Assembly: GCA_947561395.2 (NCBI GenBank)
Contig: OX387194.1
Span: 30,638,036 to 30,702,035, forward strand
Reading direction: 5' to 3'
Length of the DNA stretch: 64,000 nt
Source: Buxus sempervirens
Taxonomy: Eukaryota > Streptophyta > Magnoliopsida > Buxales > Buxaceae
The position numbers were made by a program, and so were the translations under genes. How positions within the stretch are numbered: position 1 is the first letter of the stretch; every line of letters begins with the position of its first letter. The notes under the pieces are model-generated. The model was not told the origin of the DNA. It made no database searches and was given only the letters and a program-made list of their open reading frames with translations. This document shows, piece by piece, positions 1 to 51,850 of this stretch.

Positions 1-608
1 CTGTGTACATGGAGGTGTGGAGTGTCTACTTGGCATGTTTAATTTATCAACTAAACGATAGTCATGACATTGACCAATCGATGGGTTCTCCTACTTAACT
101 GAGATGTGATTTGTTTGATTTGAACAAGTTTTGATTTGAACTTGGGAATTGATGTTGGTTGTTAATCCGTATTGAGTGTTTGTCGATGCATAGTTTTAAA
201 TTGTGGTCAACTATTTCTGCATGCATGTGCTACTCGCTGGGATATTCGTATCTCACTCCGTTGTTTGTTTTGTTTGTTTTTCAGATACTCGTGGTGAGGC
301 GATTACTGGGGTAGATCCTGCTGAGGCTTATAGGGAGGAGGATTACTATTACCTTCCTTAGACTTGTAGGTTATCTTGTTCTGAATTTGAGAACTTTGAA
401 TAATTGAGATGTGTTAAAGTTAATTGGGGTTGAACCATATGATTCTAGTTCAGTTTTAAATGTTACCATTTTGGATAAATGAAATTGTGCACTCTGTCAG
501 GTTATAGCTAGATGATTATCCAGCGATCATAATTGATTAACGATCCTTGCCTAACCTCCGTGAGACGTGTTATATCTTTATTGAACAACACGGATCCGGG
601 GCGTTACA
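1..608 (+). mobile_element. 3' part of an LTR (LTR-0), Ty3/gypsy-like
   Basis: The segment ends with GGGGCGTTACA, the same 3' end as the other LTRs here, and the LINE reading frame resumes directly after it at 609. It is therefore the right end of an LTR element inserted in the LINE, with most of it outside the window. It is a diverged relative of the LTR at 12311-14685. It carries the shared hairpin at 239-254, a polypyrimidine-CAG acceptor-like site at 282-284, and a short frame (285-361) ending in acidic and tyrosine residues. The expected target duplication would be TTAAC (609-613), but its partner lies outside the window. Confidence 0.8.
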
Positions 609-12310: not shown

Positions 12311-14629
12311 TGTAACGCCCCGAATCTGAGTCACAAGAAAAACCCGTAACTCGTCTCCAGAGGTTAATATAAATAGCAGGATCGCACTACCAGAGTAAAG
12401 AAAAACATGAATTCAATATTATTACGAAACAGAGTGTGCTACAATAACCCCAAAGTAATAACTCACATGGCCCAATACACAACCCGCAAGTATCGGCTCT
12501 CCATACGTATCTGAAAAACAAACAGAAACAAAAGAATGAGATACGAATATCTCAGCAAGCAGCACATGAATGCACAGATACACTTTATATTTTTGTGAGA
12601 TATGAGTCAAATAATCACATGAGTAAGCAAGCAATAACTCGATGGAACCGACAAAAATCCCCAATACTTTATTTGACTCAAGGATATAGATTAATGAAAA
12701 TCCGTAAGTATTTAATTTGGAACTCATTTGTTAAAAAACTTCCAATTGGTTTCAAAGAAACAATATCATTACGTCCACCTTCCAAGAAAACCCAATGCTA
12801 CCGCAATCCAATAATATATCTAAAAACTAGATAAACAAAAATCCCACAATGGTCAATGTAATGTAATTATTTGATTGGTTAATTAACACGCCAGAGAGAC
12901 CTCCACACCTCCATGTACACAGTTCCGGCCTACTCAAGGTTTCGGATACTCTGAAATGACGGCCTACTCAAGGTTTCGTCATCCAATGCCGGCCTACTCA
13001 GGGTTTCGACATTGACAACCAAGCCTACTCAGGGTTTCTGGCTGCTCTACACCGGTCGTGGCAACACTCTATGGCCATGCCATTACCCCAATAAAACAAA
13101 GGCATCACATTACTAAGCTTAGACTCTGGATCCAGGACAAGCTAAACCAAAACCGATAAATAACCAATTAAACTCCGCATTCAGTAAACCCACATTTATT
13201 TCAAACTTGTGTATCCCAATACACTCATCACATGTTGTTCCAACCAGAACATCAACTCACACAATTCGCAGGTTCCCAACCTCACAACAACATTTTCATG
13301 AAATAAATTCCTCTTACTCATACCAAGAAAAATAATCTTTACAATACATTTCAGAACTTGTCAACAAGTAAAACCAGGATTAAATAAATTCTCAAACAAG
13401 TACGGTGTTTAACCAAAGAGAAACTAAAATAGGAACTCCAAGTATTTGGTACCAAAACATCACCTACAAATGGCCTAAAAGTTGCCTTGGAAACTTCTAA
13501 GAATTTCTAGAATTTATACTTAATATTCTCATAGTAATTGAATAGGTAATATTGTTTCTAAAGTCATAAACAAGTGATTGGTTAAGTGTTTCAACCCTCA
13601 GATCATCAAAACCCAGCTCAGTTTAGTCAAACATGCACTTTGACAATATATCGGACCATGCGCTGACCTCCTGCGCTAGGCGCGAGGTCGGCGGATCGGT
13701 CGCTGGTCAAAAATGGAGTATGCGCCTACTTAACATCGAGTGAGCGCGAACTAGGTGCGAGGTGAGCGTGAGGTTCGCACGAAATGCGCATATATAATTT
13801 TGAGTTCGCGCGAGCTGAGCGCGAGGTTCGCACGAAAGCGCGTATTGAGTTCGAGTTCGCGCGAGCTGAGCGCGAACTGAGCGCAAGCTCGGCGGATGGG
13901 TAAATTGGTCCTTGCGCCCACTACCTGAAGTCGGCGCTAGTCAGCACCAACTAGGCGAATAGTAAACTGGGTTTTCGAGTCTCTGTTATTTCGAGATCTA
14001 CAACTCCGGCCGAACTTTTTCGGTCTGTAACAATTTCTTTTGTCTTCAAATGTCCCCAGAACACATTCAAACTAGTTTTGAAATTATTCCAACCCATTTT
14101 CATTTATCATCATTCAGTTCTAAAGAAAACACACTCGGACAACCTCCGTCCAGAAAACACATGAATATCTCCTTCCAGAAACATATGCATTTAGATTAAA
14201 CCTACGAATAATACGAAACCCAGGTTTTAAAATAGTGCCACTCACCGGAGTTGAGGATCTTCTTCTGGCTTGCAGCCCTTTTGATGGAGTCCTCTCGAGA
14301 TCCAAGCTTTTCTGCCGACGCCATAATTACAGGCAGCAACTTTTCCCGAATCTCCGAAAATTTTTATATTAGCTATGTATTTATAGACGTCGCAAGGTTT
14401 AACCTAATTTACCCCCGGTATTAAATTAACCCTCGGGATTCCATATCTACCCCTCATTCAAGTTGAGGTTACCCGGATTACTTATTTGCTAATTCCCTAT
14501 TTACTACATTGTTTTTAAGTTCGCAATTAATTACGTAATAATATTCTACTTATTTTCTTTGCCAACTAATGACCACAAATCTCCAGTAATAAATAAATTT
14601 TTGATTAAACCTAACAATAAATCCATGTG

Positions 14630-18314: not shown

Positions 18315-20630
18315 TGTAACGCCCCGAATCCGAGTCACAAGAAAAACCCGTAACTCGTCTCCAGAGGTTAATATAAATAGCAGGATCGCACTACCAGAGT
18401 AAAGAAAAACATGAATTCAATATTATTACGAAACAGAGTGCGCTACAATAACCCCAAAGTAATAACTCACATGGCCCAATACACAACCCGCAAGTATCGG
18501 CTCTCCATACGTATCTGAAAAACAAACAGAAACAAAAGAATGAGATACAAATATCTCAGCAAGCAGCACATGCATGCACAAATACACTTTATATTTTTGT
18601 GAGATATGAGTCGAATAATCACACGAGTAAGCAGGCAATAACTCGATGGAATTGATGAAAATCCCCAGTACTTTATTTGACTCAAGGATATAGATTAATG
18701 AAAATCCGTACGTATTCAATTCGGAACTCATTTGTTAACAAACTTCCAATTGGTTTCAAAGAAACAATATCATTATGTCCACCTTCCAAGAAAACCCAAT
18801 GCTACCACAATCCAATAATATATCTAAAAACTAGATAAACAAAAATCCCACAATGGTCAATGTCATTTAATTATTTGATTGGTTAATTAACACGCCAGAG
18901 CGACCTCCACACCTCCATGTACACAGTTCTGGCCTACTCAGGGTTTCGGATACTCTGAAATGACGGCCTACTCAGGGTTTCGTCATCCAATGCCGGCCTA
19001 CTCTGGGTTTCTGGCTGCTCTACACCGGTCGTGGCAATACTCTATGGCCATGCCATTACCCCAATAAAACAAAGGCATCACATTACTAAGCTTAGACTCT
19101 GGATCCAAGACAAGCTAAACCAAAACCGATATATAACCAATTAAACTCCGCATTCAGTAAACCCACATTTATTTCAAACCTGTGTATCCCAATACACTAA
19201 TCACACGTTGTTCCAACCAGAACATCAACTCACACAATTCGCAGGTTGCCAACCTCACAACAACATTTTCATGAAATAAATTCCTCTTACTCACACCAAG
19301 AAAAATAATCTTTACAATACATTTCAGAACTTGTCAACAAGTAAAACCAGGATTAAATAAATTCTCAAACAAGTACGGTGTTTAACCAAAGAGAAACTAA
19401 AATATGAACTCCAAGTATTTGGTACCAAAACATCACCTACAAATGGCCTAAAAGTTGCCTTGGAAACTTCTAAGAATTTCCAGAATTTACACTTAATATT
19501 CTTATAGTAATTGAATAGGTAATATTGTTTCTAAAGTCCTAAACAAGTGATTGGTTAAGTGTTTGAACCCTCAGATCATCAAAACCCAGCTCAGTTTAGT
19601 CAAACATGCACTTCAACAATATATCGGACCATGCGCTGACCTCCTGCGCTAGGCGCGAGGTCGACGGATCGGTCGCTAGTAAAAAATGGAGTATGCGGCT
19701 ACTTAACATCGAGTGAGCGCGAACTAGGCGCAAGGTAAGCGTGAGGTTCGCGCGAAATGCGCATATACAATTTTGAGTTCGCGCGAGCTGAGAGCAAGGT
19801 TCGCGCGAAATGCGCGTATTGAGTTCGAGTTTGCACGAGCTGAGCGCGAACTGGGCGCAAGCTCAGCGGATGGGTTAATTGGTCCTTGCGCCCACTACCT
19901 GAAGTCGGCGCCAGTCAGCGCCAACTGGGCGGATAGTAAACTGGGTTTTCGAGTCTCTGTTATTTTGAGATCTACAACTCTGGTCGAACTTTTTCGGTCT
20001 GTAACAATTTCTTTAGTCTCCAAATGTCCCCAGAACACATTCAAACTAGTTTTGAAATTATTCCAACCCATTTTCATTTATCATCATTCAGTTCTAAAGA
20101 AAACACACTCGGACAACCTCCGTCATGAAAACAAATGAATATCTCCTTCTAGAAACATATGCATTCAGATTAAACCTACGAATAATACGAAACCCAGGTT
20201 TTAAAATAGTGCCACTCACCGGAGTTGAGGATCTTCTTCTGGCTTGCAGCCCTTTTGATGGAGTCCTCTCGAGATCCAAGCTTTTCGGCCGATGCCCTAA
20301 TTACAGGCAGCAACTTTTCCCCAATCTCCGAATCTTTGAAAATTTTCATATTAGCTATATATTTATAGACGTCGCAAGGTTTAACCTAATTTACCCCCGG
20401 TATTAAATTAACCCTCGGGATTCCATATCTACCCCTTATTCAAGTTGAGGTTACCCAGATTACTTATTTGTTAATTCCCTATTTACTACATTATTTTTAA
20501 GTTCGCAATTAATTACGTAATAATATTCTACTTATTTTCTTTGCCAACTAATGACCACAAATCTCCAGTAATAATTAAATTTTTGATTAAACCTAACAAT
20601 AAATCCATGTGTCCATATATATATATATAT

Positions 20631-20682
<52 letters not shown>

Positions 20683-27017: not shown

Positions 27018-29245
27018 TGTAACGCCCCAAATCCAGGTTTATTTAAAAACAATAACCAGAACCTAGTACGTTAGAATAATGGCCAAAAACAACTAATTCC
27101 AGGCTTAAACAATTTCAATAATTATAATCAGAGTGCGGAATTTAAAGACATTTCCTCAAAGAAGCGTGGAATAATAAAACAATAATCATCCAATATTAAA
27201 CCATCAATCAAAGTCTGGTTTCGAGTCAACTAAAATAAATTAATCAACATCAACCAAAGTCATCTAAATAAATAATTCAAATATCTCTCAAACCACTATA
27301 TCAAAACTCAATGTATTCTCCCTAGACCTACACAGTAATAAAATAGTCGTCTTCCTGATAGTCAATATAATCCCCTGTAGTGTCTACCTCTGCGATGTCC
27401 TCTCCAGGAATATCTGAAAACAAAACCGATAAAACGATAATGTGAGAAACAACATCTCAGTAAGTAATTATGCAAATAGTTGGTAATAATAAAATATGCA
27501 ATGTTTAATGAGGTTAGTCACAAAACAAAAATACAGAATAATAATAATTAAATGAAACTTTAACAAACAAAAGCAATTCAACCTCATGGGACTCATGATA
27601 TAGAAAACCAGAGAAAGAGAATAGACATGTGCCAATATGCTACCTAACCGAATTACAGGTGGACTAGACGACCATACAGACTGGCTATTCGACACCCAAC
27701 GGAAGAACCCAACCGACAACCGGAATGAGTTAGCATGTACGGTCCAACCTATCTAGGAGTGGGTAACATAGCAATCGACCTATACAGGAGCGGTACCATC
27801 CTCGAGATGATGGAATGCCTATGACACAGAATTCAAACCACATTAGAAGACTTTTCACTTACTAGCTATTCTATGGATCCATGCAATTGCTAAACCCACT
27901 CAACAGTGGAAAACCAAACCAAGGAATGGACATATTTCCCAATAACACCCACACACGCGGAAACACAACTGTATCAATAACCAAACCCGCAACTGCGGAA
28001 TAAACAAACCAGGCAACTGTCTTGTCACAACTGTGACCCAAAACCCCACACAAGTGGCACCAAGTCATATGTCCAAACTCCATATTTCAACGTGCAACAA
28101 TGTCCCAGATGTGTATCGAATCCTTCGATGCACAAAATACACTCAAATAACCCAAATACAGGTGTATGAATTCTTAAAATCAAGTTTTGTTAAAAAGAGA
28201 ATTGTTTGGAACAATGGTTCTAAGTTAAAAAGCCTCTTTGGTAAAATATACCCAAAATCTTTATAAAATTAATTTTAAATATCCATTAGTGCAAACTATC
28301 TCTAAATACTCTAAACTTAATGGTACATAGATTTAAATTGAATAAAAACAATTTCATGGTGAAAAACTAGGCTAGTTGGGAGCTTTAGAAAAATCTGACA
28401 GATAGTCGCTCGAGCAACAATTGGGTGCTCGAGCGGGCTGTGTAAATCAAGCGATTTCAGGGTTGGTCACTCGAGAGGTCATTTGAGCGACGCTTCGGGT
28501 GTTCGTTGTTCTGAGTTTTGATCACTTTTGGGTTTCTGAAAATTAAAAAGCATAGGCGTGGCACCTTTGATATCGCTTGAGCAGTATCGAGCACCCGCGA
28601 ACTGCTCTCAAGACCCATATGGGCGCTTGAGCGGCAGTTCGAGCGACCTGTCGCAAGACACACATTCTGAATTTTTTCGAAAAGTTGCGTAAATCATTCA
28701 AAATTCGAAAAATTAAATTCTATAGAGTCAAATCCATACTAAACCATTCAGGAATACATTATAAACATGTTAGAACAATTTTTGAGCAATTAAAACACAA
28801 TATAATACACAAATGAACAATCAAACATGAGATTAAACACTATCCTCAAATAAACATGAAAATCTGTTTATGAAAATTTAAAAGGGACTACTTACCTCAT
28901 TTTGGGGCTTAAGTCTTCTCTAAAAGCAATGCAAAATCACCCCAAAGGATGTCCACACGAAACCAAATCTCCTTTATCTTGTCTAGATCAAACAAGTCAC
29001 TTTAAGAACTCATGATCATGTTTAAACTCCCAAAAACAGAAACTTTCTTCTAGCTTATTTCTTACCTGAAATCCTAGATGAAAATCCTCTCCTTCTCCTT
29101 CTGAAAAGTCTGCTCCAAAGGTTGCTTAGGATTAGGGTTTAATCACACCAAAGATGAGAAGAAGAATAGAGTAGAAGGTTGGTATGGGCGGTTGTTCACT
29201 TGGTTTTGGACATGAACAATCGCTTGCATGCTTAGGTTATTTAGA
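27018..29245 (-). mobile_element. LTR-A, Ty3/gypsy-like LTR, interrupted by LTR-B
   Basis: Starts TGTAACGCCCC on the plus strand (its 3' end) and is closely related to LTR-C. It carries a short acidic frame on the minus strand (27328-27413) ending DYFITV, an acceptor-like CAG (27414-27416), the hairpin site (27444-27458), the TATGGATCCAT palindrome (27872-27882), the CTCGAGC cassette (28395-28650) and a donor-like GAG/GTAAGTAG (28894). LTR-B begins at 29246. The remaining few hundred bases of LTR-A are not found farther right. Fossil, incomplete. Confidence 0.8.
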
Positions 29246-32200
29246 TGTAAAATCCCAGATTTTTAGTAATTAAGTAATTAAATAAAATAAATATATATAA
29301 ATTGAAATGTTATTATTTTATTGCAGAGAATGAGATTTTTTATCAATCCGGAGAATTGCAAGGTGAATCAAGAATTTGGAGAATTAAATTCCAGATGAGA
29401 TTACATTTTGGTATTATTATTATTATTATTGTTATTGTTAATGTTAATTTCTTTAGAATATTCATTAAGCTTTATAAAGATAAAATAATATGAACCATGT
29501 TTAAGGCTTGGTCGAACCCAAGCATATTAGCATGTAGACGGCTAGGTGATTGGGATTTAATCTCATAGCTTAAGAGGAAATCTATATAAGGAAGGAGATA
29601 TTAGGATAAATACTTTTGCTTGGTCGAAATCTAAGAAAAAAATTTAGAAAGTGTTGTTGTTGATGGAAAGAGGAGAAAAGGGAGAAAGGTGTGGCTGCAG
29701 ACTTCTCTTCTCCATTGGGGTTTCTCAAGAGTGTTGATCCTTTTACTGTTTGGTCAATCATATCAAATAGATAAGAGGGAGAGATATTTCGTTTCGATGT
29801 GAGGTATGTAAAATGTATAAACTCTTGGTTTATATTTTGTATGCATAGTTTAGTTTGTTGAAAGGTTCTAAGATTATATTCGTATTGATCTAGAAAAGAT
29901 AAAGTTGTTGTTTTCATTGGGATTGCAAGAGGGTGATATTTGGTCTTTCGATGGAGATTTGAATTGAGAAGCAAGGCAAGTAGCCCCTTACAACTTGCAT
30001 AAAATCAGAATTTCGGATTTCACCGAATACATGTTTATACGTATAGTTTTATTGGATTTTAGTTGATAAGCATGGTGTTTCAATGGTTTGATGATTTTAG
30101 ATTGATTTGTTATGTTTGGAAGATGCTATTGGATGTATTAGAACTGGTTTGAAGTGTTGAGAGCATGATCTATAGCTTTAGTTTTAAATTTCCAAAAGTT
30201 TAGAAAATCTGAAATTTTAGAGAATTTGTATGGCCGCCAAAGATTTTGCTTGAGCACCAAATCAAGCGCCCTTTTGTATGTTAAGGCCACTTGATACAAA
30301 TCGAACTTTCAATCAGGTGTCCCACCTGTGTATAAATTTCAATTTTTAAAACCCGAGAGTAATGTTTGCTCATTTGTTCTTGTACTCGAGGTGGAGCTCC
30401 AACGCTATATATAGCGCTCAAATGTTCTTAAACCTAGACTTCATCACCAATTTGTCACTTGAGCACGACAGCAAGCACCATTTTCTTTGATTTACCTGCT
30501 ATTGACACTTGACTTGACGCCCTACCTAGTGTAACGCCCCAGATCTAAGTTTATTTAAACACATAAACCCAAATCTGGTTCGTTAGGGAAAATGGCCCAA
30601 AACTATTATTCCAGATTTAAACAATTTCATTTATTATATCAGAATGCGGAAATAAAAACATCTTTCAAGAAGCGCGGAATTAAACCACCAAAATATCCAT
30701 TAATATATCATCGATATAGTCTGGAAAGGTTCAACTAAATAAAATAAATAACATCCACAAGGGTATGGAATAAAGATACTAATAATCCTTCAAATGACAT
30801 CAAAATCCTCAAATAAAATACTAAAGTTAATTCCTAAAAAAATAAATCTAAATAGCTCTCCATGTCCTCTTGGACCTACACAAGAATGAAATAGTCTTCT
30901 TCCTGGTAATTACAATAATCCCCCAGAGTCTCTACCCCAGCAACGTCCTCTCCAGGAATATCTGAAAACAAAACCGATAAAACAATAATGTGAGAAACAA
31001 CATCTCAGTAAACAGTCATGCAAATAGTTGACCACAATAAAATATGCAACGCTTAATCCGAATAATCACAATAAGATTCAAGACAACAATGAAACACAAT
31101 TTATCTACCTCATTTGACTCATGAAATAGTATACCAGAAAAAGAGAGTAGACATGTGCCAATGTGCTACCTAACCGAATTACGATGGACCAGCCGCCCTG
31201 CAGTCTGGCTATTCAACACCAACAGAAGAACACAACCATGAGTTAGCATGTACGGCCCAACCAATCCAGGAGTAGGTAACATAGCGATCGACCAATCTAG
31301 GAGCAGTACCATCCTCGAGATGATGGAATGCCTCAGACACAGAATTCAAACCCCTCTAATACAAATTTCACTTACTAGCTATTTTATGGATCCATATAAC
31401 TGCTAAGCCCACTCAACAGTGAGAAAAACCAATTAGGGTAATGGACATACTTCTCAATAACACCCACCAAATACAGAACCATATATGTATAACCAAATCT
31501 GCTTATGCGGGAAACAATAAATCAGGCACCAACCTTGCACACCAGTGACCCAAAACCAAAACAGAATGCACCAAGTCATATGTCCAAAACTCCAGGTTTC
31601 AACGGGTCAATATGTCCTGAATGTGTATCGACTCCATCGATGCACAAAATACCTTCATATCACCCAAATACAGGTGTATGAACTCACAAACCCAACCTTA
31701 GTTAAAAGTAAAATCTTTTGGAACAATGGAATCAAGTAAAAGTGCCTCTTTAGAAACATCTACCCAAAATCTTTATAAAATGAATTTTAAACATCCGCCA
31801 GTGCAAACACTTCCCAAATACCCCAATCTTGATGGTATATAGGTTAAATTTAGATAAAAACACTTTCGTGGTGAAAAACTAGGTTGAAAAGTAAATTTCC
31901 AAAATTTGACAAACGGGTCACTCGAGCAGCCAAGGGCGCTCGATCGGCCTTACAAAATAGGTTGTTTCAGGGGAGGTCACTCAATAGGTCACTCGAGCGA
32001 CTGTTCAATCTAGATAAAATTGCTCTCGGGTTTTGAATATATACATAGGACACTCGAGCGACTGCTCAAGCGGCCTGATACGTGAAAATTCCGTAACTTT
32101 GCGAAATTCAACAAAAATTCAACAACTCAATATTCAATGCATCAAAACCATTCTAAATCATTCTAAAACACTTATAAACATACTAGAACAATTTCCCACA

Positions 32201-32601: not shown

Positions 32602-34948
32602 TGTAAAACCCCGAATTTTACTTAAATAATAAATTAAATTAGTAAATAATATTACTGAGGGTTATGATTGATGGGAATATTTTATTCTTGTAGGGGGTGA
32701 TCAGTTTAGTGAAGATCCAGAATTAGACGCAGATCTGACCGTCCGATCTTGAGATATCGAGGTACGTATTTTAATTGGGCGAGGTGTATGGGAGAGTTTG
32801 CATGGGAGATGCATGGGATCAGGGAGTATATATATGTATTAAATAACCTAATCGTATTCTCGCTCGTATTATTCAGCCGCAAACGACGAGAGTTGAAACG
32901 ACCGAGAAGAGAAGAAAGAGAAGGAAGGGGGAAGACCAAGGGAACTTGCTCAGAGCCTTGCCTTGCAACTGAGGAGAGGTTTGGGGGTTTGCTGTTCAGA
33001 AGAGAAGAGGAGAAACGCGTATACGAGGTAGGTGACACCGTTTTGGTTTTGAGTTTGGATTTTTCCTTGGTTAATCGCAAATGCATGTTTCTATGATATG
33101 TAATGTTGTATTTAGTTAGCTAAGCATGCTAGAAATACACTAGAATGAGTTTAGACGAGAAAAATCGTGATTTAGAACTATTTCTGCTCGATTTCGCACG
33201 ACCGCCGACCTCGACTGTGCTCGGCACTCGTCGGCGATCTTCGGCACTGGTTAAATAAAATTAGGGCGCCGTAGACCGCGAGAAGACGGACCGCGGGCGC
33301 TCGAAAATACACGACCGCTGACCTGGGACCGCCAGGGCGATCCTGAGCGATCCTAGGCGCTCTCAACAGAATTTCCAATTTTTCTTAATTTCGAACCTAA
33401 TTCAATTCTAAACTATTTTTAGACAATTTTAATGATTAATTAAGGTGCTTTAAGACCAAAATAAACTACCTAAACCCCTGTTTTACAGAAAAACAAATTA
33501 GGGAGATATTTAGGACAATAGTTGCCAAGTTTTGAAGGTAAATGAGAAACGTGATTTTGGAAAAGCCTAACTACCATTTGACTATCTAAATACCTCTAAA
33601 TGACATTATAAATCAGAATACCTTCTAAAGAGAATACTGAATTCAGATGAACAAATATTGAAGTAAATGTACAGATATAACCATTATATGCCGCTAGGCA
33701 CCAACCCTTATAGAATATGACACTTTAGGGAAGTTTTGGAGTCTAGTGGGCATAGCTGGTTGTGGATCCATAGTCGTAGCTAGATAGCTGAGGGATATGT
33801 CATTTGGGTTGAATTACTCCTATATGCGACGCGCTTCCTTTGCAAGTTAGTTTGTCTGGGAAGGTCCTATGTCTGGAGGGACACCCCGGTGAGCCGCTGG
33901 TGATTCCCTGTACATGTGGATAAGCAACCACCTCCATGTATTGATTCTGGTGCTGCATGCTGGTGGTACATGCCAACTTTGATGGGTACGTGTGCAATAA
34001 GTCGGTGACTACGGCTCTTGTCTAAGCTGCACTGCATGGGGCTTGAGTATCATTAGTAGCATCGCTCCTAAGTCGCACGGTGGTATAGCAATTGGTTGAG
34101 AATCATCTCAAAAGGTTTATCTAACTTTGTGGGTCCTACAATGACCCTGAAATCATAAAACTTGTTATTATTGTGGTACATGCGGAAGGCATGTGTTTGG
34201 GATATTGGTTGGATGTGACTGTTTAGTACATCCTGGCAATGTATAAATTATGTTACTGATTTGACTATGGTATTTTCATATTAAACTTGCTGGAATTCAT
34301 CTCTAGAACTGTTTAGTATATTGTTTTGTATTTACGAATGATACGAATGATTATACGAGCCTGATTAATCGATGTGACTTATTCGTGCATGAACTGCTAC
34401 TTTCCGTATATTAACTGTTTAATCATGCATGTGTCACCTACTGGGATATTCGTATCTCACCCTACTGTTATTCCATTTTTTCAGCTGATACGCGAGAGGG
34501 GGATCTCTTAGACTTCCAGGGAGAGATAGCTGAGTATTCTCCAGAGGATTACTATTATCCCGATCTGATCTGAGGTGGATTGATGTTATAGACTTAGCAT
34601 TTTTAATTGGTTTATTATCATTAATTGGATTTGATGTATGAGAGAGACCAGAGAGAGTTAGTAACCAGTTCATTCTACCAGACTTTGATACTATTGATTG
34701 ATGGTCAAGCTTCATGCTTGTTTGATGATTTTAATCTACACTTCCGCACATACTTGTTTCCGCAACTTTGATGGATTAATATATGGATTGGATTTACTTT
34801 CTTTGGTCTGGTATGTTATTGATGTTGTGATTCATATGGGCCAGTAACACCTCGGATTTGGTTGTTGAACTAAATTCGGGTTGTTACAGTAGCGAACCGG
34901 GTTCGGGTCAGGTGCCGGTTTGGACTGACCCGGGTTCGGGGCGTTACA
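32602..34948 (+). repeat. 5' LTR of the complete chromovirus
   Basis: Begins TGTAAAACCCC and ends GGGGCGTTACA. Order inside: TATATATA box-like stretch (about 32827), donor-like GAG/GTAGGTG at 33028, CpG-rich GCTCG/GGCGATC segment (33180-33370), GGATCCATA (33764-33772), hairpin (34443-34458), acceptor CAG (34482-34484), and short acidic frame (34485-34573). Confidence 0.97.
34443..34458 (+). promoter_or_regulatory. Shared LTR hairpin GGGATA-TTCG-TATCTC
   Basis: A six-pair stem (one G-U pair) closed by a TTCG loop, 24 nt before a polypyrimidine-CAG. Equivalent sites occur at 239-254, 41590-41605, 51448-51462 and 59877-59890 on the plus strand. On the minus strand they occur at 12538-12553, 18542-18557, 27444-27458, 30992-31006, 43188-43203, 44729-44742, 61303-61316 and 63727-63741. 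The stem sequence varies, but pairing is mostly kept. Its 3' arm contains CTCAC/CTCAT, a branch-site-like sequence. Confidence 0.6.
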
Positions 34949-34952
34949 GAGA

Positions 34953-38000: not shown

Positions 38001-39772
38001 TTTCACAGAAAGACCTGAATATGAGGCAGCGAAGGTGGATGGATCTGCTAAAGGATTTCAAGTTTACTTTGCAATACCACCCTGGTAAGGCAAATGTAGT
38101 GGCGGATGCTTTGAGTAGAAAAAGTTCAGTTGAAGGTCAAATAGCTACTTTAGCAGCTTTCATGATGAGCCAGTGTAGATTGATTGATTCAGTCAGAGAT
38201 TGGCAGGGAGAGTTTAGCATGCCACAGGATGGAGTGATCCGAGTTGCTCGTGTTCAGATTGAACCAGATTTGGTCCAGTTGATTCGGGAGAAACAACTGA
38301 TTGACCCACAGTTGATTCAGACTAAGGGATTGATGAGTAGAGGATCTGAGGCAGCTGTAGACTTTTCAGATAGAGATGGGCTATTGAGATATAGAAGTCG
38401 TATTTGTGTTCTAGCTGATGAGGAGATTAAGGAGAAGATATTATCAGAGGGTCATAGATCGAAGTATGCAGTTCACCCAGGAAGTACGAAAATGTACAAG
38501 AACTTGAAAGAAATCTATTGGTGGTCAGGAATGAAGAGAGAGATTGCAGAGTATGTGGCAAAGTGTTTGATATGCCAGCAAGTAAAAGCTGAACATCGGA
38601 AACCACCTGGTTTACTTCAGTCACTTCCTATCCCAGAGTGGAAGTGGGAGCATGTAACTATGGATTTTGTATCTGGATTACCACTGACAGCAAGGAAGGA
38701 AGATGCTATTTGGGTTGTCATGGATAGACTGACTAAGTCTGCGCATTTCTTGCCTATGAGCACTACACAGCCATTGAAGTCTTTAGCTGAGTTATATGTC
38801 AGGGAGATAGTGAGACTTCATGGAGTGCCAGTTTCTATAGTGTCTGATAGAGATGCACGATTCATAGCACGCTTTTGGCTTGCATTTCAGGCAGCTTTGG
38901 GGACTAAGCTTAATTTCAGCACTAGTTATCATCCTCAGACAGATGGACAGTCCGAGCGTACCATTCAGACTTTGGAAGACATGTTGAGATGCTGTGTTAT
39001 GGATTGGGGAGGCAGTTGGAATCAGCACCTACCATTGGTGGAGTTTGCCTATAATAACAGCTATCAGGCGAGTATTCAGATGGCACCATTCGAGGCACTT
39101 TATGGAAGACCGTGTAGATCCCCAGTGTGCTGGGTGGAAGTTGGTGAAAGACAACTCATTGGGCCCCAGATTGTACAAGATAGCATTGAGAAGGTGAATC
39201 AGATTAGGCGAAACATGCTTACAGCCCAGAGTCGTCAAAAGCGTTATGCAGATACCAGAAGAAGAGACTTGCATTTTGAAGTTGGAGATTGGGTATTTCT
39301 GAAGATATCACCATCTCGTGGAATCAAGAGGTTTGGAAAGAAAGGCAAATTGGCTCCAAGATATATAGGTCCGTTTGAGATTAAGGGTATAGTGGGACCA
39401 TTAGCATACAGATTGGCTTTACCTACACAACTGGAAGGAGTTCATGACGTATTCCATGTTTCTATGTTGAGGAAGTACGTGCACGACCCTACTCATATCA
39501 TTCAGCATGAACCGATAGTAGTGCGGGGGGACTTGACTTACGAGGAGCATCTAGTTGAGATTTTGGACAGGAAGGAACAGGTTCTCCGTACTAAAGTAAT
39601 ACCACTTGTGAAAGTACTTTGGCAAAACCACACGACTGAGGAAGCTACATGGGAATTGGAATCGGAAATGCAGAGAAAGTATCCCAACTTATTTCCAGAA
39701 CCACAAGGTAAATTTCGAGGACGAAATTTTTCTTTTAGGAGGGGAGGATGTAAAACCCCGAATTTTACTTAA
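35075..39772 (+). CDS. Gag-pol polyprotein of the complete chromovirus
   Basis: One uninterrupted frame of about 1,565 residues from the ATG at 35075 ([12 protein letters not shown]). Approximate order: Gag capsid region (residues 75-230), CCHC zinc knuckle near 313 (CYRCGRPGH), aspartic protease near 437 (DSGAS), reverse transcriptase (about 590-770; FIDDIL near 757-762), RNase H (about 860-1010), integrase zinc-binding region (about 1120-1160) and catalytic core (about 1180-1300), and a C-terminal chromodomain (about 1490-1545; [11 protein letters not shown], then EEATWE). The chromodomain in this family is known to guide integration to marked chromatin. The end of the frame overlaps the palindrome at 39710-39729 and the polypurine tract. 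Confidence 0.96.
39710..39748 (+). promoter_or_regulatory. Conserved palindrome and polypurine tract
   Basis: AAATTTCG-AGGA-CGAAATTT (39710-39729) followed by a purine run AGGAGGGGAGGA that abuts the 3' LTR. The purine run primes plus-strand DNA. The palindrome recurs in the same place in the other two internal regions of this window. Confidence 0.85.
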
Positions 39773-42095
39773 ATAATAAATTAAATTAGTAAATAATATT
39801 ACTGAGGGTTATGATTGATGGGAATATTTTATTCTTGTAGGGGGTGATCAGTTTAGTGAAGATCCAGAATTAGACGCAGATCTGACCGTCCAATCTTGAG
39901 ATATCGAGGTACGTATTTTAATTGGGCGAGGTGTATGGGAGAGTTTGCATGGGAGATGCATGGGATCAGGGAGTATATATATGTATTAAATAACCTAATC
40001 GTATTCTCGCTCGTATTATTCAGCCGCAAACGACGAGAGTTGAAACGACCGAGAAGAGAAGAAAGAGAAGGAAGGGGGAAGACCAAGGGAACTTGCTCAG
40101 AGCCTTGCCTTGCAACTGAGGAGAGGTTTGGGGGTTTGCTGTTCAGAAGAGAAGAGGAGAAACGCGTATACGAGGTAGGTGACACCGTTTTGGTTTTGAG
40201 ATTGGATTTTTCCTTGGTTAATTGCAAACGCATGTTTCTATGATATGTAATGTTGTATTTAGTTAGCTAAGCATGTTAGAAATACACTAGAATGAGTTTA
40301 GACGAGAAAAATCGTGATTTAGAACTATTTCTGCTCGATTTCGCACGACCGCCGACCTCGACTGTGCTCGGCGCTCGTCGGCGATCTTCGGCGCTGGTTA
40401 AATAAAATTAGGGCGCCGTAGACCGCGAGAAGACGGACTGCGGGCGCTCGAAAATACACGACCGCTGACCTGGGACCGCCAGGGCGATCCTGAGCGATCC
40501 TAGGCGCTCTCAACAGAATTTCCAATTTTTCATAATTTCGAACCTAATTCAATTCTAAACTATTTTTAGACAATTTTAATGATTAATTAAGGTGCTTTAA
40601 GACCAAAATAAACTACCTAAACCCCTGTTTTACAGAAAAACAAATTAGGGAGATATTTAGGACAATAGTTGCCAAGTTTTGAAGGTAAATGAGAAACGTG
40701 ATTTTGGGAAAGCCTAACTACCATTTGACTATCTAAATACCTCTAAATGACATTATAAATCAGAATACCTTCTAAAGAGAATACTGAATTCAGATGAACA
40801 AATATTGAAGTAAATGTACAGATATAACCATTATATGCCGCTAGGCACCAACCCTTATAGAATATGACACTTTAGGGAAGTTTTGGAGTCTAGTGGGCAT
40901 AGCTGGTTGTGGATCCATAGTCGTAGCTAGATAGCTGAGGGATATGTCATTTGGGTTGAGTTACTCCTATATGCGACGCGCTTCCTTTGCAAGTTAGTTT
41001 GTCTGGGAAGGTCCTATGTCTGGAGGGACACCCCGGTGAGCCGCTGGTGATTCCCTGTACATGTGGATAAGCAACCACCTCCATGTATTGATTCTGGTGC
41101 TGCATGCTGGTGGTACATGCCAACTTTGATGGGTACGTGTGCAATAAGTCGGTGACTACGGCTCTTGTCTAAGCTGCGCTGCATGGGGCTTGAGTATCAT
41201 TAGTAGCATCGCTCCTAAGTCGCACGGTGGTATAGCAATTGGTTGAGAATCATCTCAAAAGGTTTATCTAACTTTGTGAGTCCTACAATGACCCTGAAAT
41301 CATAAAACTTGTTATTATTGTGGTACATGCGGAAGGCATGTGTTTGGGATATTGGTTGGATGTGACTGTTTAGTACATCCTGGCAATGTATGAATTATGT
41401 TACTGATTTGACTATGGTATTTTCATATTAAACTTGCTGGAATTCATCTCTAGAACTGTTTAGTATATTGTTTTGTATTTACGAATGATACGAATGATTA
41501 TACGAGCCTGATTAATCGATGTGACTTATTCGTGCATGAACTGCTACTTTCCGTATATTAACTGTTTAATCATGCATGTGTTACCTACTGGGATATTCGT
41601 ATCTCACCCTACTGTTATTCCATTTTTTCAGCTGATACGCGAGAGGGGGATCTCTTAGACTTCCAGGGAGAGATAGCTGAGTATTCTCCAGAGGATTACT
41701 ATTATCCCGATCTGATCTGAGGTGGATTGATGTTATAGACTTAGCATTTTTAATTGGTTTATTATCATTAATTGGATTTGATGTATGAGAGAGACCAGAG
41801 AGAGTTAGTAACCAGTTCATTCTACCAGACTTTGATACTATTGATTGATGGTCAAGCTTCATGCTTGTTTGATGATTTTAATCTACACTTCCGCACATAC
41901 TTTTTTCCGCAACTCTGATGGATTAATATATGGATTGGATTTACTTTCTTTGGTCTGGTATGTTATTGATGTTGTGATTGATATGGGCCAATAACACCTC
42001 GGATTTGGTTGTTGAACTAAATTCGGGTTGTTACAGTAGCGAACCGGGTTCGGGTCAGGTGCCGGTTTAGACTGACCCGGGTTCGGGGCGTTACA
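39749..42095 (+). repeat. 3' LTR of the complete chromovirus
   Basis: A near-identical copy of 32602-34948 (about 99%), followed by the target duplication CACGC. Confidence 0.97.
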
Positions 42096-44382
42096 CACGC
42101 GGCTGCTGGTTTCTATATTGTGTTTTAAACTCAACATGAATCACTTCATGCACTACTAGGTTTGTTTATTATTTAATTCATTTTTACTATATTACCCTCT
42201 TCACTAAACCAACTTTATTTTATCAAACCATAAAGTCTCAACCCAACTAAACCCTTGGGTCAACCCACTCTCTTTGGGTTTGACCAACTCTTTTTATTCT
42301 CCTTGTTTATTTCTCATTTTATTCTTACTAATATAAACCATAACAGCAATAATTATTATAATAAAATAATACCTAGTCCATAATCATGAACTCACCTTAT
42401 ATCGGCTCTCCTATCATCTCAGGTTCATCTTGAACTCCTCCGGGTTGAACCAAAATCTCATCTCCTGCATGTTATTAACCAATTAGTCTATTGATTTAGT
42501 TATTACTAAAATCTGGGATTTTACACCTTGGCTCGATTGCCGGTTCCTAAAATTTCAAAAGATTGATCAAAGTCTAGTTTTTTATTCTAAAATTATTTTT
42601 GAGTGATTCCAACTCATGTATCAACTAGATTAGGATATTTTGGGAGTGTTTACATTGGCCAAAACTTTATTTAGATTCTTTTAAGAATTTTGGGTACTTT
42701 TTGCTAAAAAAAACATGAGTTTGGATTTTTTCTAAACATGTGGATTTCTTTTAATTTGGAATGTATTTATTGTTTTCAACACTTGGATTTGAACTATTTG
42801 GGCATGATTTGAGTTTCATAAAGGTTTAAACAGAATTTGAACTTAATTTGAGAATTTTGGCCATGTTTTAGTTCATGGTTTAAAGAGATGAAATTTTCAA
42901 TTACCCTGTTCTTGACATGTATGTGTCACCGCGTATGCGAGTGTAATGCCCCAGATCCAAGTTACTTAGTGAAACCATAACTCATCTCCAAAGGGTTAAT
43001 TAATCCACAAGATCTATATATCAGAATGAACGAAAACATGAATAAAGTAATAAACTACGTAATCAGAGTCATCTATATTCCCAAACACAATATAAACTAC
43101 CATATCTCAAGTCTAAACTCACATGATCCAAACATCTACCCTCTTGTGTCAAGCTCTCCAAGACCTAAAAACAAGACAAAACTGAATGAGATACAAATAT
43201 CTCAGCAAGTAGCACATGAATGCTTAAATACATTTTATTCAGTTCTAAATCATGGATTAGTTATAAAACATATAACAGTGACGATAACATGAATATCCAA
43301 CCGTAATCCAACAATCAATATGAGATAAGCTCGTATAATCCATCATGTAAATCAAATCTGTTGTATCGAATCAGAAATCAATAAGTCACAGCAGGACTCA
43401 TGAAATAAGATTGCCTTTAACCAGGGTAATATCAATGTCCACTATGCCACCTCTCGGCTTATATGCGAAACTGAGTACACGATCATCGTCATTGCAGGAG
43501 AACCCAACCAGTATAGCGAAAGGGCATCTTCGAGTACACGGAGGTATAACATCTACCCAAGTACATGGGTATCTCAATCCATCTCTCCAATTACATGGAG
43601 GAAAACCAAATCAGAAATCAAATCTCAATCTTCGGGAATAATTCATAATAGTTGAAAACAATGCAAGTTTTCCCACAAGGTCAAATTATTCCAAAACAAC
43701 CCAAGATGGAGCTCAAAATACCAAATTTCCAAATCTGACCAGAAAGGTAATCTTAGAGGTTTATTTATATAAAACATGATTAAATACAATGATTACATAA
43801 AAGGAAATCCTTAAAATCTTTACAATCTAGTGTAGCATCCCAAAACACATTTTTAACCTCAAAATAAACTAATTTAATGGAATAGGTGGCCACTTATTTG
43901 CTAGAATCCCAATTATGCAATGTGCCTTTGGAAATATCTTAGAAATGATCTCAAGGAAGTGTTACAAGTGGTGGAATCCAAATAAACTCAATCTACTGTG
44001 ATTTGGAATCAAAAGTCTCTCAAGAACCTAGTTTAGTAGAATGTGCCCAAACTCTTTGTTAAATTTAATTTTAAGATAAACCCAGTATGAAAACTTTCTA
44101 AATACCTACATCTTATTTGTACATAGATTGGATTTGATCAAAAATCATTTTATAGTTGAAAAGTACTCAAAAGTGTGAAATTAGTGAAATTTCGGTTTGG
44201 GTGTTCGACATGGCGCTTGAGTGTCCAAATAGACGACAGAAGAACCAAATATTCAAGAATGGGCACTTGGCATAACACTTGAGCATCCTGTTGGACATTC
44301 GGCTTATTTGGAAAATTAAACTTTCAGGTTCTGAGATTTTTAAGAAAACACAGGCGGGGTGCTTGCGATAGCACTCGAGCGC

Positions 44383-47300
44383 TGTAACGCCCCGAACCCG
44401 GGTCAGTGCAAACCGGCACCTAACCCGAACCCGGTTCGCTACTGTAACAACCCAAGTCCGGTTCAACAACCAAACTCGAGGTGTTACCACGAAGCTGGGG
44501 TCAGATACAAACCAAGATTCACAATAATATTAAAATTTACAAATTAATTACATCAGAGTTATGGTGGCCAATAACAACAATTCTTTATTCAATAATATCA
44601 ATTCTGTTTACAATAAAGTTTATCTAATCAACATGTGGCATTAATACCAATTATATTTCTACCCATCAAAGTAAAACCCCATCTTCGCGATCTCTCCAAA
44701 CAACCTGAAAAATAGGGGAAAACGGAGTGAGATTTACATCTCAGCAAGTAGCAGGTGCATGCAATTTGAAACAGTCCAATATAAGCAAATAGTCATGAGG
44801 TATTCGATTAATCAACGATAAGACGAGAAATCCAAGTTATTCATGGCAATTACAAATAAGGCGATGAAACATATGATCATGTATAAATACCAGTCTCTTG
44901 ATGTTAACGAGGTAAAACCGACAAAGCGATAAAACACGTTCCATTGCAAGACTCACAAAGATGATAAGTATTTGAGATGACACTCAACTAAATGCTGTTC
45001 CACCGTGCGGCTTAGGGGCAGTGCTACTTGATGATACTCAAGCCCCATGCAGCGCAGCTTAGGCAAGAGCCGTAGTCACCGACTTATTGCGCACGAACCC
45101 CGCAGAGTTGGACGTACCACCAGCATGCAGCACCAGAATCAATACATGGAGTGTGGTCGCTTATCCACATGTACAGGGAATCACCAGCGGCTCACCGGGG
45201 TGTCCCTCCAGACATAGGACCCTCCCAGAGCAAACTAACTTGCAAAGGGAAGCGCGCTCGCAATATAAGAGTAAATCGACCCAAACTAAATACCACTTAG
45301 CTAACCAGCCAAAACTATGGATCCATATACAGCTAAGCCCACTGACACAAACCACAATAAAACCACATACGGGAGGATACGCTAATGTAGGAGGCATACA
45401 CACTTTTACCCGTAAAGGATTACACATCTCTACACAGAGGATTACCCATCTCTGCCGTAAAAGATAGTATCAAACTCTACCACAGAAGCCGTATCACCCA
45501 ACCGTAAAATTAAAGAGAACAATATCATACCACATACCAATCCATACCAAAGTATTCAATTCCAAGTGAAAACCATGTTTCAATCCTCAATAATCCAAAC
45601 AGAGCCTTTTGCATGATAACAGATGCAATTCTTTAATTATATTCAAAATAAACCCATGAATCATAAGTTCGATGGAACTTAAAGTTTATGCAAATCCAGT
45701 AGCCAATATTCATATTTAAAGCCCAAATAAAAGTAAATCAAATCATGCTTGAACTTTTCCTTCTTAATCCCCTTATTAGAATCCAATTTCCTACCTTAGC
45801 ACCTAAGCTAGTTTCTATTTGAATTTTCTGTATTTTATTTTTCCAGCATGTTCTACAGACCTAGAATGAAGTTTAAAAGATGTTTGTAAGCTATAAATTT
45901 CAGTAGTATTATTTCTAGCAATATCCATACCCTTTGACTCTTTTATAAACAATCCTTTCATTATAACCTTCTATTTATTGCTTAATCTTTCCCAATTAAT
46001 TTTATAATTTTTATAGCTTAATTAGGTCCTTATAAAGATGCTAACATGCTTAACTAATCATAAGAATTATTGGGTATTTATTCGAATTACAAAATCCCCA
46101 AAATCTACAAAATTTACTTAGAGCGCCTACCTCGACAGGCTGGGAGATCCTAGGCGATCCTAGGCGCTAGTGCAATTTTTAACAGAATTTTCCAGATTTT
46201 CCAATTTCGGATTCTTATGCTTTTGCTTTATATTTTCTTGGTCTAAATTAATCTACAAACTTTCTGAAACTTACCTAGAGCCTTCTAGAGTAATTTTTAT
46301 GAATTAAATACCCTCCTACCTTTATTTACATAATCCAACTAAACTTTCTTCACTAATTTGATAATTCCATCAAGAACACAAACCATGAAAATATAAGCAA
46401 CTTGATTCCATGTAAATATAGTTCCATCTAATCCAGGCTAACCATATGAAATCACAGAAATCAAAATCATGCAATTCCTCACGTTTTCCAAGGGTTACTA
46501 CTTGCCTTATACGCTAAATCCTTCTTCTAGTGCACCTTCTAATTCTGGACCAGAATGTTGCTCCCAACCGCACCAAGCTAGACTCTTCTAATTCAAATCT
46601 TCACCGTTCACAATGTATTTTTATCAGTCATGAACAAAACCTCCAAATTTGAGGCGATCCACCGCACGGATTTTCCCCGATCGCGTTTTGATGGTGGCTG
46701 GTCAGACACCTCCATTAGAGACCTCCTTCCTTTCTCTCCCTCTTTTCTCTCCATAAGAAACCCACGAAAATCCCCTCTCTTCTAACCTTAGTCTCCTATT
46801 TATACTAGGCTTTAGAAATCCTAAACCAACCCTAATTGGCTAATTTAATTTGGGCTAACTCAACCATGGTCTAGTTAAAGTCTAATCTTCTAATTTAATT
46901 CTTACTTTTTCTCCACCTTCTATTTTTCTACTTAAACAACACTAATTAAGTTTCTTATTATCTAAACTCATATTTATAACCTATTTTCGTGCAAAATATT
47001 TAATTAAACATTTTTATCACTTAAAACCTTATTTTCCCCAAATTAAGACGTGAAATCTCCTAATTACCCTTTTCTCCACTTTTAGGCTTTTATTAATTTC
47101 TTTTGATCTCTAACTTGTCAAACTAATTTGTTTTCTTCTATTTTCTATTTCTAATTATTATTTGATGATCTATTTACTAATTAACCTTTTCTGAAAATTA
47201 CCGAAATACCCTTTTTATTCTTTTAGGCTAATTTCATTAAAATTCTTTCTTTATTTTCAAATTAGAACTTATTTGAATTAATTATCCTCTAAATCTCCAC

Positions 47301-49198: not shown

Positions 49199-51850
49199 GG
49201 GGCCAGCCCCCCCATTTCAACAAGTTGGTCCCCCCTTTGGCCCCCATTCTCCTTCTCTGCCCTCTGCTCGTCCAAGCCCTGCCAAGCTCTGTCACTTTCA
49301 AAACCAAACCCCAAAATACCCCTAGGCTACACCCCTTTCTCTTCTCATTTTCAACCCTTTCAATCTTAAAGCAAGGGTGGTCCTGTTCAAACCCACTTCA
49401 GGAAATCAACAGGAGCGCGGAAGCACTGCCGAAATCACACGGAGAACCAACACTTGTCAAAAACAAGAAGGTAATAGCAATGAGACATTTCTAGTAACAT
49501 TGCAGTTATTATCTATCAAAGTTGATGTTTTCTACGTAAACCTTGTTTACTATTTTGTCTTGTCATCTATTTCTAACCTATTTGCTCTTGTTCTACATGA
49601 TTATGGGCTCCCATGGTGAGAGAGAGACCTCACTTGAAGAGAGGGAAGTAACTTCTTTAAAGTAAAAGAAAAAAAAGAGAGAATATAATACAAGATAATA
49701 TGACTCGGTTAATTTGTTTTGTTTGCATATTTCAAGAGGGGTATGTGTCCTCTTTTAATTCTTCAATGTACCCCCCAAATCCTTTTCTTCCCTCTCTCCT
49801 TTCCTATGAAGTATAACATATTGCCCAGCGAAGTGAATGGATAAAAAGAAAGGAATTTGAATTCCTTAGGAGAACATGAAGAAAAAGAAGAAGCATGGAT
49901 TGAAGATGAAGCATTTGTGAATATGTAAAGGAGCTGGGAACCCAAACAGAAGCCGCCGGAACCTCCAAGAAGGCAACCAAAATGATCTCGGCCGAAATCG
50001 GTGCAAAACTGTAAAATCAAGCAGAAATCATATTTACAATACGGTCCAGGCTTGCCCGTATTTCCTATACGGTTTGGCTTGAACCGCATTATATTCCCGG
50101 TTCAGACCAGACCGTATAGTAAATACGGTTAGCTTTAAAATAACTTAAAAAATGGAATTTTTGGACCCAGTTGGATCCGCTCTGACCCGAACCGGCTTGA
50201 CACGACCCTATAAGATTGTTTGGGCTATCCTGAGCCCATTTGTGGACTGTGGGCCTAAATGGGCCCACCAAGACCTCCTGGGCCCACCTTTTGACCGGCC
50301 AAAACCAAGCCCATTTTCAAAAAACGGGCTCAAGGCCATTGGTTTAATTGCTACTGGGCCAAACCCAAACCCAATAAGCCCTTAAAATGCTTGATTAATT
50401 TAATAAATAAACCAAAAAGGGTTACCCAATAACCCTTCTGGGCCCAAGCCCAAACTTGGCAATCCACAGGCCTTCCAACGGGGCCTGTCTCCGACCCACC
50501 TAATCTAAATAAAAAGATAAAAAATGAAATAAAAAAGGACCTACACCTTCAAAGGGTCCTGCCATACTAAAAGACCCATGCTAGTCTAGGAAAGGGTGAA
50601 AATTGACTCAAAAACCAGGAAGACCTGAGGGACCCGTCAAACCGACGGGGTAGGCCGGGGTGTCTTCGGACTTCCCCAGACGTAACCGAGGACTTAGCTA
50701 GATCTCTAATAAGCCGCAAACAAGACTTAGACCCGGATAGGCAATTCCCGTATCTGCCTGCACCTCTCAGGCAGTGGCGACTCCGAAAGTCCCAAGGCAC
50801 GCACGAACCCACGTGCGCCTCGTGTGCGATCTAGGCAAATTTAGGTGCGCACACATAGAATCCAATTTTAAATTTATATTATATTTAAAATTTATGGATT
50901 TTACAACGAGTGTACTTTTGACATGTATATATCTCCACGTATGTGGCCTTGTTATATCACGTATATAATTTCACGTATGTGGCAATTTATGACGTATGTC
51001 TCACCCAGTATTTGTGTTTTCCATTGTCGAGTGGGAGTAGCGTTTAATGGATCCATAGAGTAACTAGTAAATGAAATGGTTTATGGAGTTAGGATTCTAT
51101 GTCATAAGCATTCCATCATGTTTATGATGGTATCGCTCCAATATCTGTTGGTTATTAAGTTATCCACTATGGTATCGATTGGATCGTATATTCTAACTCA
51201 CTCCGGTATAGATTGAGTACTTCCGTTTGGCGTCGAATAGCCTGACCGGTATTAATTGGCATGCTTGTAATTCGGTTAGATAGCATGTTGGTATAGTCTG
51301 TCGACTTATCTCTATGTTCTATTTCATGAGTCCTACAAGACTTATCGTATATGCTTTGCTTTATGATTATATCTGTTTTGTTTAATCTGATTTTTTGTTG
51401 CATGTTTATAATTGTATAAAATTTAGTTTTCCGCATGGATACTTACTGAGATGTTGTTTCTCACATATTGTTTTATCGATTTTGTTTTCAAACCCTCGAG
51501 AAGAAACGTTGCGGATTTGGTTCTGAGGGAGACTACCTTGAATACAAAGAGGAGGATTATTTTACTGTGTAGGTTTAGGGGTTATTACTTTTATTTAATT
51601 TGAGACTTATGGATTTTGATTATGGGTTGTATTGGAACAATTTAGTTGACCAAGAACCAGAAATTTATTTTTGGAGGGTTATGTTGGATAATGATCACAT
51701 TAGTTGTTTTTATGCCACGCTTTGATAGAGGATTTTATTATTATTGCACTCTAATTATGAATTGCAATTAATTACCATTATTGTCTGGTTTAGTTTATGT
51801 TTTAGGCCACAAGTTAATGTTCAGGCCACAAGTTAATGTCCATTAACCAT

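Follow-up and report, generated by a model that had tools for sequence, protein, structure and literature searches.

Introduction

In retroviruses, short hairpins are found in the R region, HIV-1 TAR being one that starts at +1, and structured splice acceptors set the balance of splicing between genome and mRNA. Unlike TAR, the hairpin described here lies far downstream of the probable start of transcription, and directly on the 3′ splice site of a predicted intron. Among plant elements, the Ty3/gypsy retrotransposon Ogre has an intron between gag-pro and RT, in its internal region; unlike that of Ogre, the intron predicted here belongs to the LTR itself and terminates, on its 3′ side, in a conserved hairpin.

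Where a 2025 review takes up the question, plant LTR retrotransposons are described as generally without introns, with Ogre and EVADE as exceptions (PMC12786077). According to the part of that review concerned with EVADE and BARE1 (Ty1/copia), alternative splicing divides a short mRNA from the full-length RNA, a likeness to what is proposed below, but these elements belong to another superfamily, their short-GAG intron lies within gag-pol, and in that part neither an LTR acceptor nor a hairpin is described (PMC12786077). Closer in position is Diaspora, a soybean Ty3/gypsy element for which splice-site prediction places donors in the LTR and acceptors close to where gag starts, although in the sections of the paper dealing with them these splice sites are predictions only; its authors stated there, in 2005, that retroviruses and LTR retrotransposons were not known to have an intron upstream of gag (PMC1142308). 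A likeness of another kind is offered by the CRM chromoviruses, in which, in the passages that treat their coding region, the C-terminus of Pol is partly coded by the 3′ LTR and the chromodomain coding region extends into it, whereas here a splice across the PPT and U3 is predicted (PMC3605345). A survey of LTR structure, in the portions of its text consulted, describes no such feature (PMC3601003), and among the titles and abstract beginnings listed in searches of open-licence literature, none names an LTR-embedded intron or this hairpin.

The Hairpin and Its Copies in the Window

The window, that is, the whole 64-kb stretch of DNA that was analysed, contains a gypsy-type element (element A) whose LTRs, at 32602-34948 and 39749-42095, are 99% identical and have the ends TGTAAAACCC...GGGCGTTACA (TG...CA), with the PBS TGGTATCAGAGC at 34953, next to the 5′ LTR. 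Four pieces of 35075-39769 match, in this order, the Pfam families Retrotrans_gag, RVP_2, RVT_1, RT_RNaseH, Integrase_H2C2, and SH3_Tf2-1, with gag, protease, RT, RNase H, and integrase in the order of gypsy elements. The C-terminal piece matches SH3_Tf2-1 only and no Pfam chromodomain, and the type of its C-terminal sequence suggests a Ty3/gypsy chromovirus of the Tekay/Del group. Element B (12311-20722, minus strand) has LTRs that are about 95% identical, and no pol frame in it reaches 200 codons; an ORF at 16756-17892, on the strand opposite to it, matches Pfam Transposase_32. Also present in the window are a long open frame at 585-2453, whose matches to RVT_1 and zf-RVT mark it as a reverse transcriptase of LINE type, and two tandem arrays with similar CCGCCGCTAA-type units, at 52021-52348 (73 nt x 4.5) and 2694-2952 (64 nt x 4.1). 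In viral contigs, the RT query, the PBS pattern, and the pol-end pattern were all without match. In genome contigs of other organisms the PBS pattern was found in a single plant-like contig (L001), filed under Labilibacter sediminis, which looks like plant LTR retrotransposon DNA (LTR end plus PBS, at 1226-1246) and is probably a contamination, and in whose stretch 600-1300 no hairpin was seen.

An iterative nhmmer search of four rounds, seeded with window 34300-34700, gave 13 sites at E < 1e-8, five on the plus strand (207, 34301, 41448, 51431, 59842) and eight on the minus strand (12632, 18636, 27467, 31021, 43238, 44779, 61350, 63781); the first round alone gave eight sites and the later rounds the other five, and one further match, with an E of 0.18, is unrelated. 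A first-pass annotation of this DNA had reported a hairpin common to 13 LTR copies, which the search bears out, and the positions 59877, 44729, and 61303 that it had given are stem ends in our alignment of the 13 sites (A1). The alignment displays an upstream block, a short inverted repeat, a pyrimidine tract, and CAG. All 13 sites have TCTCAC or TCTCAT, and the acceptor triplet was scored as CAG in nine, TAG in one, CAA in two, and TAA in one, the TAA at 63741 being a scoring artefact, with a CAG further downstream in the alignment. The sites and their neighboring features are as follows:

34443..34458, plus strand: hairpin in the 5′ LTR of element A, GGGATA-TTCG-TATCTC, 6 bp including one G.U (sequence, alignment, and core fold)
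34442 with 34459, plus strand: seventh pair on the same hairpin, T34442-A34459 (core fold)
34459, plus strand: putative branch adenosine (CTCAC), 25 nt upstream of the AG and paired in the core fold, its role suggested by motif and distance
34482..34484, plus strand: predicted 3′ splice site, CAG after the pyrimidine tract (sequence)
41590..41605, plus strand: hairpin in the 3′ LTR of element A; leader donor 40175, exon 2 at 41632
239..254, plus strand: hairpin in a truncated LTR, GGGATA/TATCTC; tail DTRGEAITGVDPAEAYREEDYYYLP, stop
12538..12553, minus strand: hairpin in the 3′ LTR of element B; leader donor 14245, exon 2 from 12510
18542..18557, minus strand: hairpin in the 5′ LTR of element B; leader donor 20219, exon 2 from 18514
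27444..27458, minus strand: hairpin GAGA/TCTC; leader donor 28895, exon 2 from 27413
30992..31006, minus strand: hairpin GAGA/TCTC; leader donor 32307, exon 2 from 30961
43188..43203, minus strand: hairpin GAGATATTTGTATCTC in a truncated LTR
44729..44742, minus strand: hairpin GAGATGTAAATCTC with a GUAA loop; exon 2 from 44704
51448..51462, plus strand: hairpin GAGA/TCTC; acceptor decayed to CAA
59877..59890, plus strand: hairpin GAGACATTCGTCTC, pair 5 C-G instead of U-A; leader donor 58035, exon 2 from 59918
61303..61316, minus strand: hairpin GGGATTTATATCTC; GC-type leader donor 62895, acceptor decayed to CAA
63727..63741, minus strand: decayed hairpin, A.C at the first stem pair

The weak stems at 27458, 31006, and 51448 retain only GAGA/TCTC, and since 34443/41590 and 18557/12553 are the 5′/3′ LTR pairs of single elements, the window holds at most 11 independent copies. 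Rfam gave no match above the gathering threshold in the window. In many copies a CATGCATG block lies some 20 nt upstream of the hairpin (for example, at window 219-230).

Stability does not set individual hairpins apart from shuffled sequence (z from -1.73 to +0.51 in 11 folds), and in a 53-nt context the best fold of the reference copy is a different one, so that the evidence for pairing has to be comparative. In isolated cores, the outermost U-A pair includes the A of CUCAY in nine of nine folds, and it is this A that would be the putative branch adenosine.

Pairing of the Stem Across the Genome

The genome-wide counts refer to one genome, the assembly of the host plant (676.5 Mb). The pattern of the upstream block, CATGTGNTRCTTRCTG, which includes the first base of the stem, has 2,863 exact matches there, vs 1 for the backwards control, and in the first 30 loci listed (contig C1) an inverted repeat of 4 to 6 pairs adjoins the block in every case. 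At pair 2, a position that played no part in the selection of these 30 sites, a count by eye gives A-U in 13 and G.U in 17, with C or T never present on the 5′ arm. A set of 19 unique hairpins, taken from 45 sites (11 of the window, with two LTR twins left out, and 34 of the host genome), forms 98 contiguous base pairs vs a mean of 41 after shuffling, with 98 reached in none of 2000 shuffles; when the arms are swapped between copies the mean is 91.2, and 39 of 5000 swaps reach 98. Covariation within the window-type families alone is modest.

More distant families extend this picture, as in the family of L044/L077 (LTR ends TGTAATGACCC/GGGTCGTGACA), where the stem is GAGT/ACTC. The pattern CTTACTGAG-N(5-18)-CTCACY has 339 matches in the host genome vs 7 for the backwards control, and 47 unique inner sequences, drawn from the 100 listed of these 339 and with one overlapping row set aside, were used for covariation, the outer pairs being fixed by the search pattern and hence outside this test. 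Within this set, pair 4 is Watson-Crick in 44 of 47 (T-A 23, A-T 18, C-G 3; unpaired in 3), while shuffling of the 3′ letters gives a mean of 19.8 and reaches 44 in none of 20,000 permutations; pair 5 is Watson-Crick in 31 of 46, with 3 G-U besides (5 of 20,000 permutations), and pair 6 showed no significant covariation (12/42). The permutation preserves the make-up of the columns and not the relatedness of the copies, but three types of pair across several sequence backgrounds make descent alone unlikely. The stem is a covarying RNA structure, with compensatory changes beyond chance. The joint change of both arms from which the first-pass annotation had suggested RNA pairing is borne out at pairs 4 and 5, which covary strongly once the more distant LTR families are added; a lack of covariation, named there as the outcome that would speak against pairing, is the opposite of what these two pairs display.

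The Acceptor and the Putative Branch Site

Of the 30 sites selected through the upstream block, 28 have TCTCAY after the loop and 29 have CAG or TAG, when the acceptor is taken as the first [CT]A[GA] triplet of the T-run; the tract is 79% pyrimidine, and from the A of CTCAY to the AG there are 21-33 nt (median 26.5). Both the position of the hairpin just before an acceptor-like site and the CTCAC/CTCAT at 20-30 nt from the AG had been read earlier from the letters of the window, and these counts agree well with that reading. Another eight hairpin places have CAG (L088, L089, L093, L094) or TAG (L091, L092) after a U- or AU-rich stretch in six cases, L095 having AAG and L090 no clear AG.

So tightly kept a distance between branch site and AG would also be expected if the hairpin were an aid to splicing, that is, if it shortened this distance or presented the branch region to U2 or to a host protein, with the intron being removed efficiently; moreover, leader introns in plants often raise expression. 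However, the stem includes CUC and, in all nine isolated cores, the branch adenosine itself, which should hinder pairing with U2, and we regard such a helping role as unlikely.

A Predicted Leader Intron Within the LTR

If the hairpin stands at an acceptor, a donor should be sought upstream, and a donor in the same LTR that matches the hairpin acceptor is what is new here relative to the first-pass annotation. A 5′ splice-site motif was found by eye in the first 250-900 nt of nine of nine LTRs, and a TATA box, TATAAATA or TATATATA, precedes it in seven of them, while in L060 no TATA box was found before the donor and in L061 only a weak one. These donors are listed below, with a caret marking the predicted splice junction:

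Element A: CGAG^GTAGGTGACAC
Element B: TCCG^GTGAGTGGCAC
C (GC-type): AAG^GCAAGTAG
L044: AAACA^GTAAGGG
L052 (pol-less locus): ACAG^GTGAGTGGCAT
L053: CTAG^GTAAGTAGTCC
L054: TTAG^GTAAGTAGCAC
L060: AGAG^GTAAGC
L061: CTCAG^GTGAGTAGCAC

GC-type leader donors (AAG^GCAAGTA) occur in the window at 62895 (minus strand) and 29976 (plus strand). A profile of eight such donors has matches upstream of the window hairpins, and a degenerate donor consensus is found at 10 places in the window vs 1 in the reversed sequence, and eight of the 10 (33028, 40175, 58035, 62895, 32307, 28895, 20219, and 14245) are followed, after 1.3-1.84 kb, by a hairpin of the same strand; as the consensus was drawn from these and from sister families, this is a test of place and not of motif. 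The eight introns so predicted measure from 1346 to 1883 nt. Genome-wide, the donor of one family, CAGGTGAGTAGCACTGATTT, is found at 1,734 places with up to 2 mismatches, vs 0 for the control, and among the 33 exact matches on contig C1 within range of listed acceptors, 28 have a listed acceptor 1497-1589 nt downstream, with none upstream and none on the other strand. In the 5′ LTR of element A the predicted layout is:

32827..32834, plus strand: TATA-like box TATATATA, 225 nt from the LTR start at 32602
33028..34484, plus strand: predicted LTR-embedded leader intron of 1457 nt, ACGAG^GTAGGTGACACC ... TTTTTTCAG^CTGATACG

A predicted 5′ splice site, a putative branch site, a pyrimidine tract, and an AG thus succeed one another in the order of a spliceosomal intron, and since the donor is conserved in the same LTR as the acceptor, the hairpin probably closes a leader intron embedded in the LTR. 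The splicing alternative of the first-pass annotation is in this way strengthened, since its acceptor has a conserved counterpart donor in the LTR, and another at the end of pol (see below).

These same donors bear on the readings in which the hairpin has no primary role in splicing. One is that the inverted repeat is a palindrome at the DNA level, a transcription factor site or a cruciform in the LTR promoter, and in fact 18 of 39 rows have a TATA-like motif 27-31 nt before the block, and the CATGCATG block stands before the hairpin in many copies; nevertheless, the motif at -30 is absent from the other 21 rows, a TATA box is placed near the 5′ end of the LTR, with the donor behind it, in seven of nine LTRs, G.U pairs are common (17/30), and the polarity of the strand is fixed by branch site, tract, and AG, all of which leave this explanation very improbable. 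The related reading of a promoter with its TATA box some 30 nt before a TAR-like hairpin was weakened by the same TATA boxes (7/9), by the donors (9/9), and by the 21 of 39 rows without the motif. The first-pass annotation had offered as its alternative an R-region signal, which in the sense of TAR would place the hairpin at the 5′ end of the RNA; this is not supported, because in the reference LTR about 1.6 kb separate the hairpin from the likely TATA box upstream. Another possibility, which we consider a little less likely than the aid to splicing, is that the hairpin serves the genomic RNA, in packaging, dimer formation, or strand transfer in R, and that the proximity of the acceptor is secondary. 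The hairpin is indeed inside the probable R region, and is kept in element B without a pol frame, as cis signals of the genome would be; however, the acceptor AG and the spacing from CTCAY to AG are kept alongside it across families of very different sequence, and element B and the pol-less L052 also keep the leader donor, for which packaging has no need.

Returning to the leader intron, its predicted removal would have consequences for translation. In element A, exon 1 (169 nt, counted from an assumed start 32 nt past the TATA box) contains no ATG and the intron 36, and in element B the figures are 0 and 31; in other loci exon 1 has 0 (L061), 1 (L044), 3 (L052), 3 (L054), and 4 (L053). For element A, element B, and L061, the lack of any ATG in exon 1 speaks against a uORF that would begin there and extend into the tail, and this reading was rejected for them. 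Between LTR exon 2 and gag, element A still has 14 ATGs, so that removal of the leader intron would not by itself free the path to gag. Directly 5′ of the gag ATG at 35075, TTTTGCAG hints at another splice, and together with the 14 ATGs it suggests a further leader intron within window 34575-35075, which would remove the PBS.

If spliced RNA were copied, LTRs without the intron would be expected. A probe for the leader junction of one family has no match genome-wide within 1 mismatch, and at 2 mismatches it has nine, which by their letters are eight unspliced acceptors and one deletion (L085); the junction probes of two other families have none within 3 mismatches. This result fits the exclusion of spliced RNA from copying, and equally fits the absence of splicing.

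A Second Donor at the End of pol

The same acceptor, in its 3′ LTR copy, may have another partner, and the features concerned are these:

39700..39713, plus strand: predicted pol-end 5′ splice site ACCACAAG^GTAAAT, exon end 39707, phase 1
39708..41631, plus strand: candidate alternative intron, from the pol end across the PPT and U3 to the acceptor of the 3′ LTR, both ends in phase 1
34485..34573, plus strand: LTR exon 2, open in a frame that would code for an acidic tail ending ...SPEDYYYPDLI, stop

The pol frame of element A ends in ...PNLFPEPQ, followed by ACAAG^GTAAATTTCGAGGACGAAATTT before the PPT; the donor is in phase 1, which is also an open phase of the LTR exon. The anchor TTTCGAGGACGAAATTT alone is found at 913 places genome-wide vs 0 for the control, and of 30 anchor loci inspected by eye, 19 were judged to have a pol end and 11 to lack one. 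A YPxLF-like motif is present in 18/19 of the former vs 0/11 of the latter, AG^GT at 16 nt or less from the anchor in 14/19 vs 1/11, and GT at the exact place in 13/19 vs 0/11; a looser count, of any GT in the last 8 nt, gives 17/19 vs 6/11. Beside the PPT, TTTCGAGGACGAAA (window 39713-39726) forms an inverted repeat that is kept in pol-less loci without the adjoining donor; the 17-mer beside the PPT has 913 copies genome-wide.

With regard to the tail, it is kept whole in 13 of 41 sites, where it closes with an EEDYY-like acidic stretch that only a few residues separate from the stop, and two more sites were added. In one pol subfamily an in-frame TGA stands one codon before the pol-end donor in six of six loci (L048, L049, L054, L061, L062, L064), and the tail frame in the 3′ LTR behind L048 (L075) is nonetheless intact, despite this TGA; an intact LTR tail in that subfamily therefore cannot be a plain extension of Pol. 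Purifying selection on the tail is weak, with a pN/pS of 0.58 in frame vs 0.89 and 0.67 in the other frames, over 21 pairs chosen for an intact tail. A comparison of the LTRs in three frames for coding conservation was set aside, being confounded by nucleotide identity. In L044 the donor is in phase 0 and a 19-codon frame in phase 0 follows the acceptor, a length that chance alone allows. The hairpin acceptor may be open to a second donor, at the pol end, whose use would give Pol an acidic tail.

Discussion

Covarying hairpin, donor, acceptor, and the spacing between them are conserved in these LTRs, and from their arrangement we infer both the splicing itself and its restraint by the hairpin, as well as the roles of the two RNAs that would result. 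The order in the LTR would be a TATA box, a short exon 1, a conserved 5′ splice site, an ATG-rich intron, a hairpin with the branch site, a U-rich tract, CAG, and exon 2, with a leader intron of 1.3-1.9 kb wholly within the LTR. Its splicing would remove some thirty upstream start codons from the leader and would thus help to make an mRNA, while unspliced transcripts would retain the full R region that reverse transcription needs in order to rebuild the LTR. The conserved UGAG/CUCA stem would cover the CUCAY branch site and pair the branch adenosine itself, in such a way that folding and the binding of U2 snRNA would be mutually exclusive; the hairpin would hence hold splicing back, and both kinds of RNA would be kept. 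We incline, with somewhat more belief than doubt, to the reading of a structured 3′ splice site to which the hairpin belongs, and where it masks the branch site of the LTR leader intron and restrains its splicing.

In pol-bearing elements, the donor at the pol end would be joined to the same acceptor in the 3′ LTR, removing the PPT and U3 and placing the acidic tail on Pol. As element B shows no pol frame and keeps both the hairpin and the leader donor, the hairpin would be tied to the leader intron and not to the Pol tail. The full proposal, an RNA switch in many LTR families of one plant genome, in which a mask on the branch site divides mRNA from genome and the same acceptor also yields a second, tailed form of Pol, can be put forward only tentatively, and we would sooner doubt it than accept it in its entirety.

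If this is true, thousands of LTRs would each contain a leader intron that ends in a structured acceptor, which would alter the picture of plant LTR retrotransposons as poor in introns, and would suggest how such elements keep their genomic RNA apart from their mRNA. The donor together with the hairpin acceptor would be a sharp landmark for the annotation of LTRs, and where a solo LTR lands in a host gene, its splice acceptor could be drawn into that gene.
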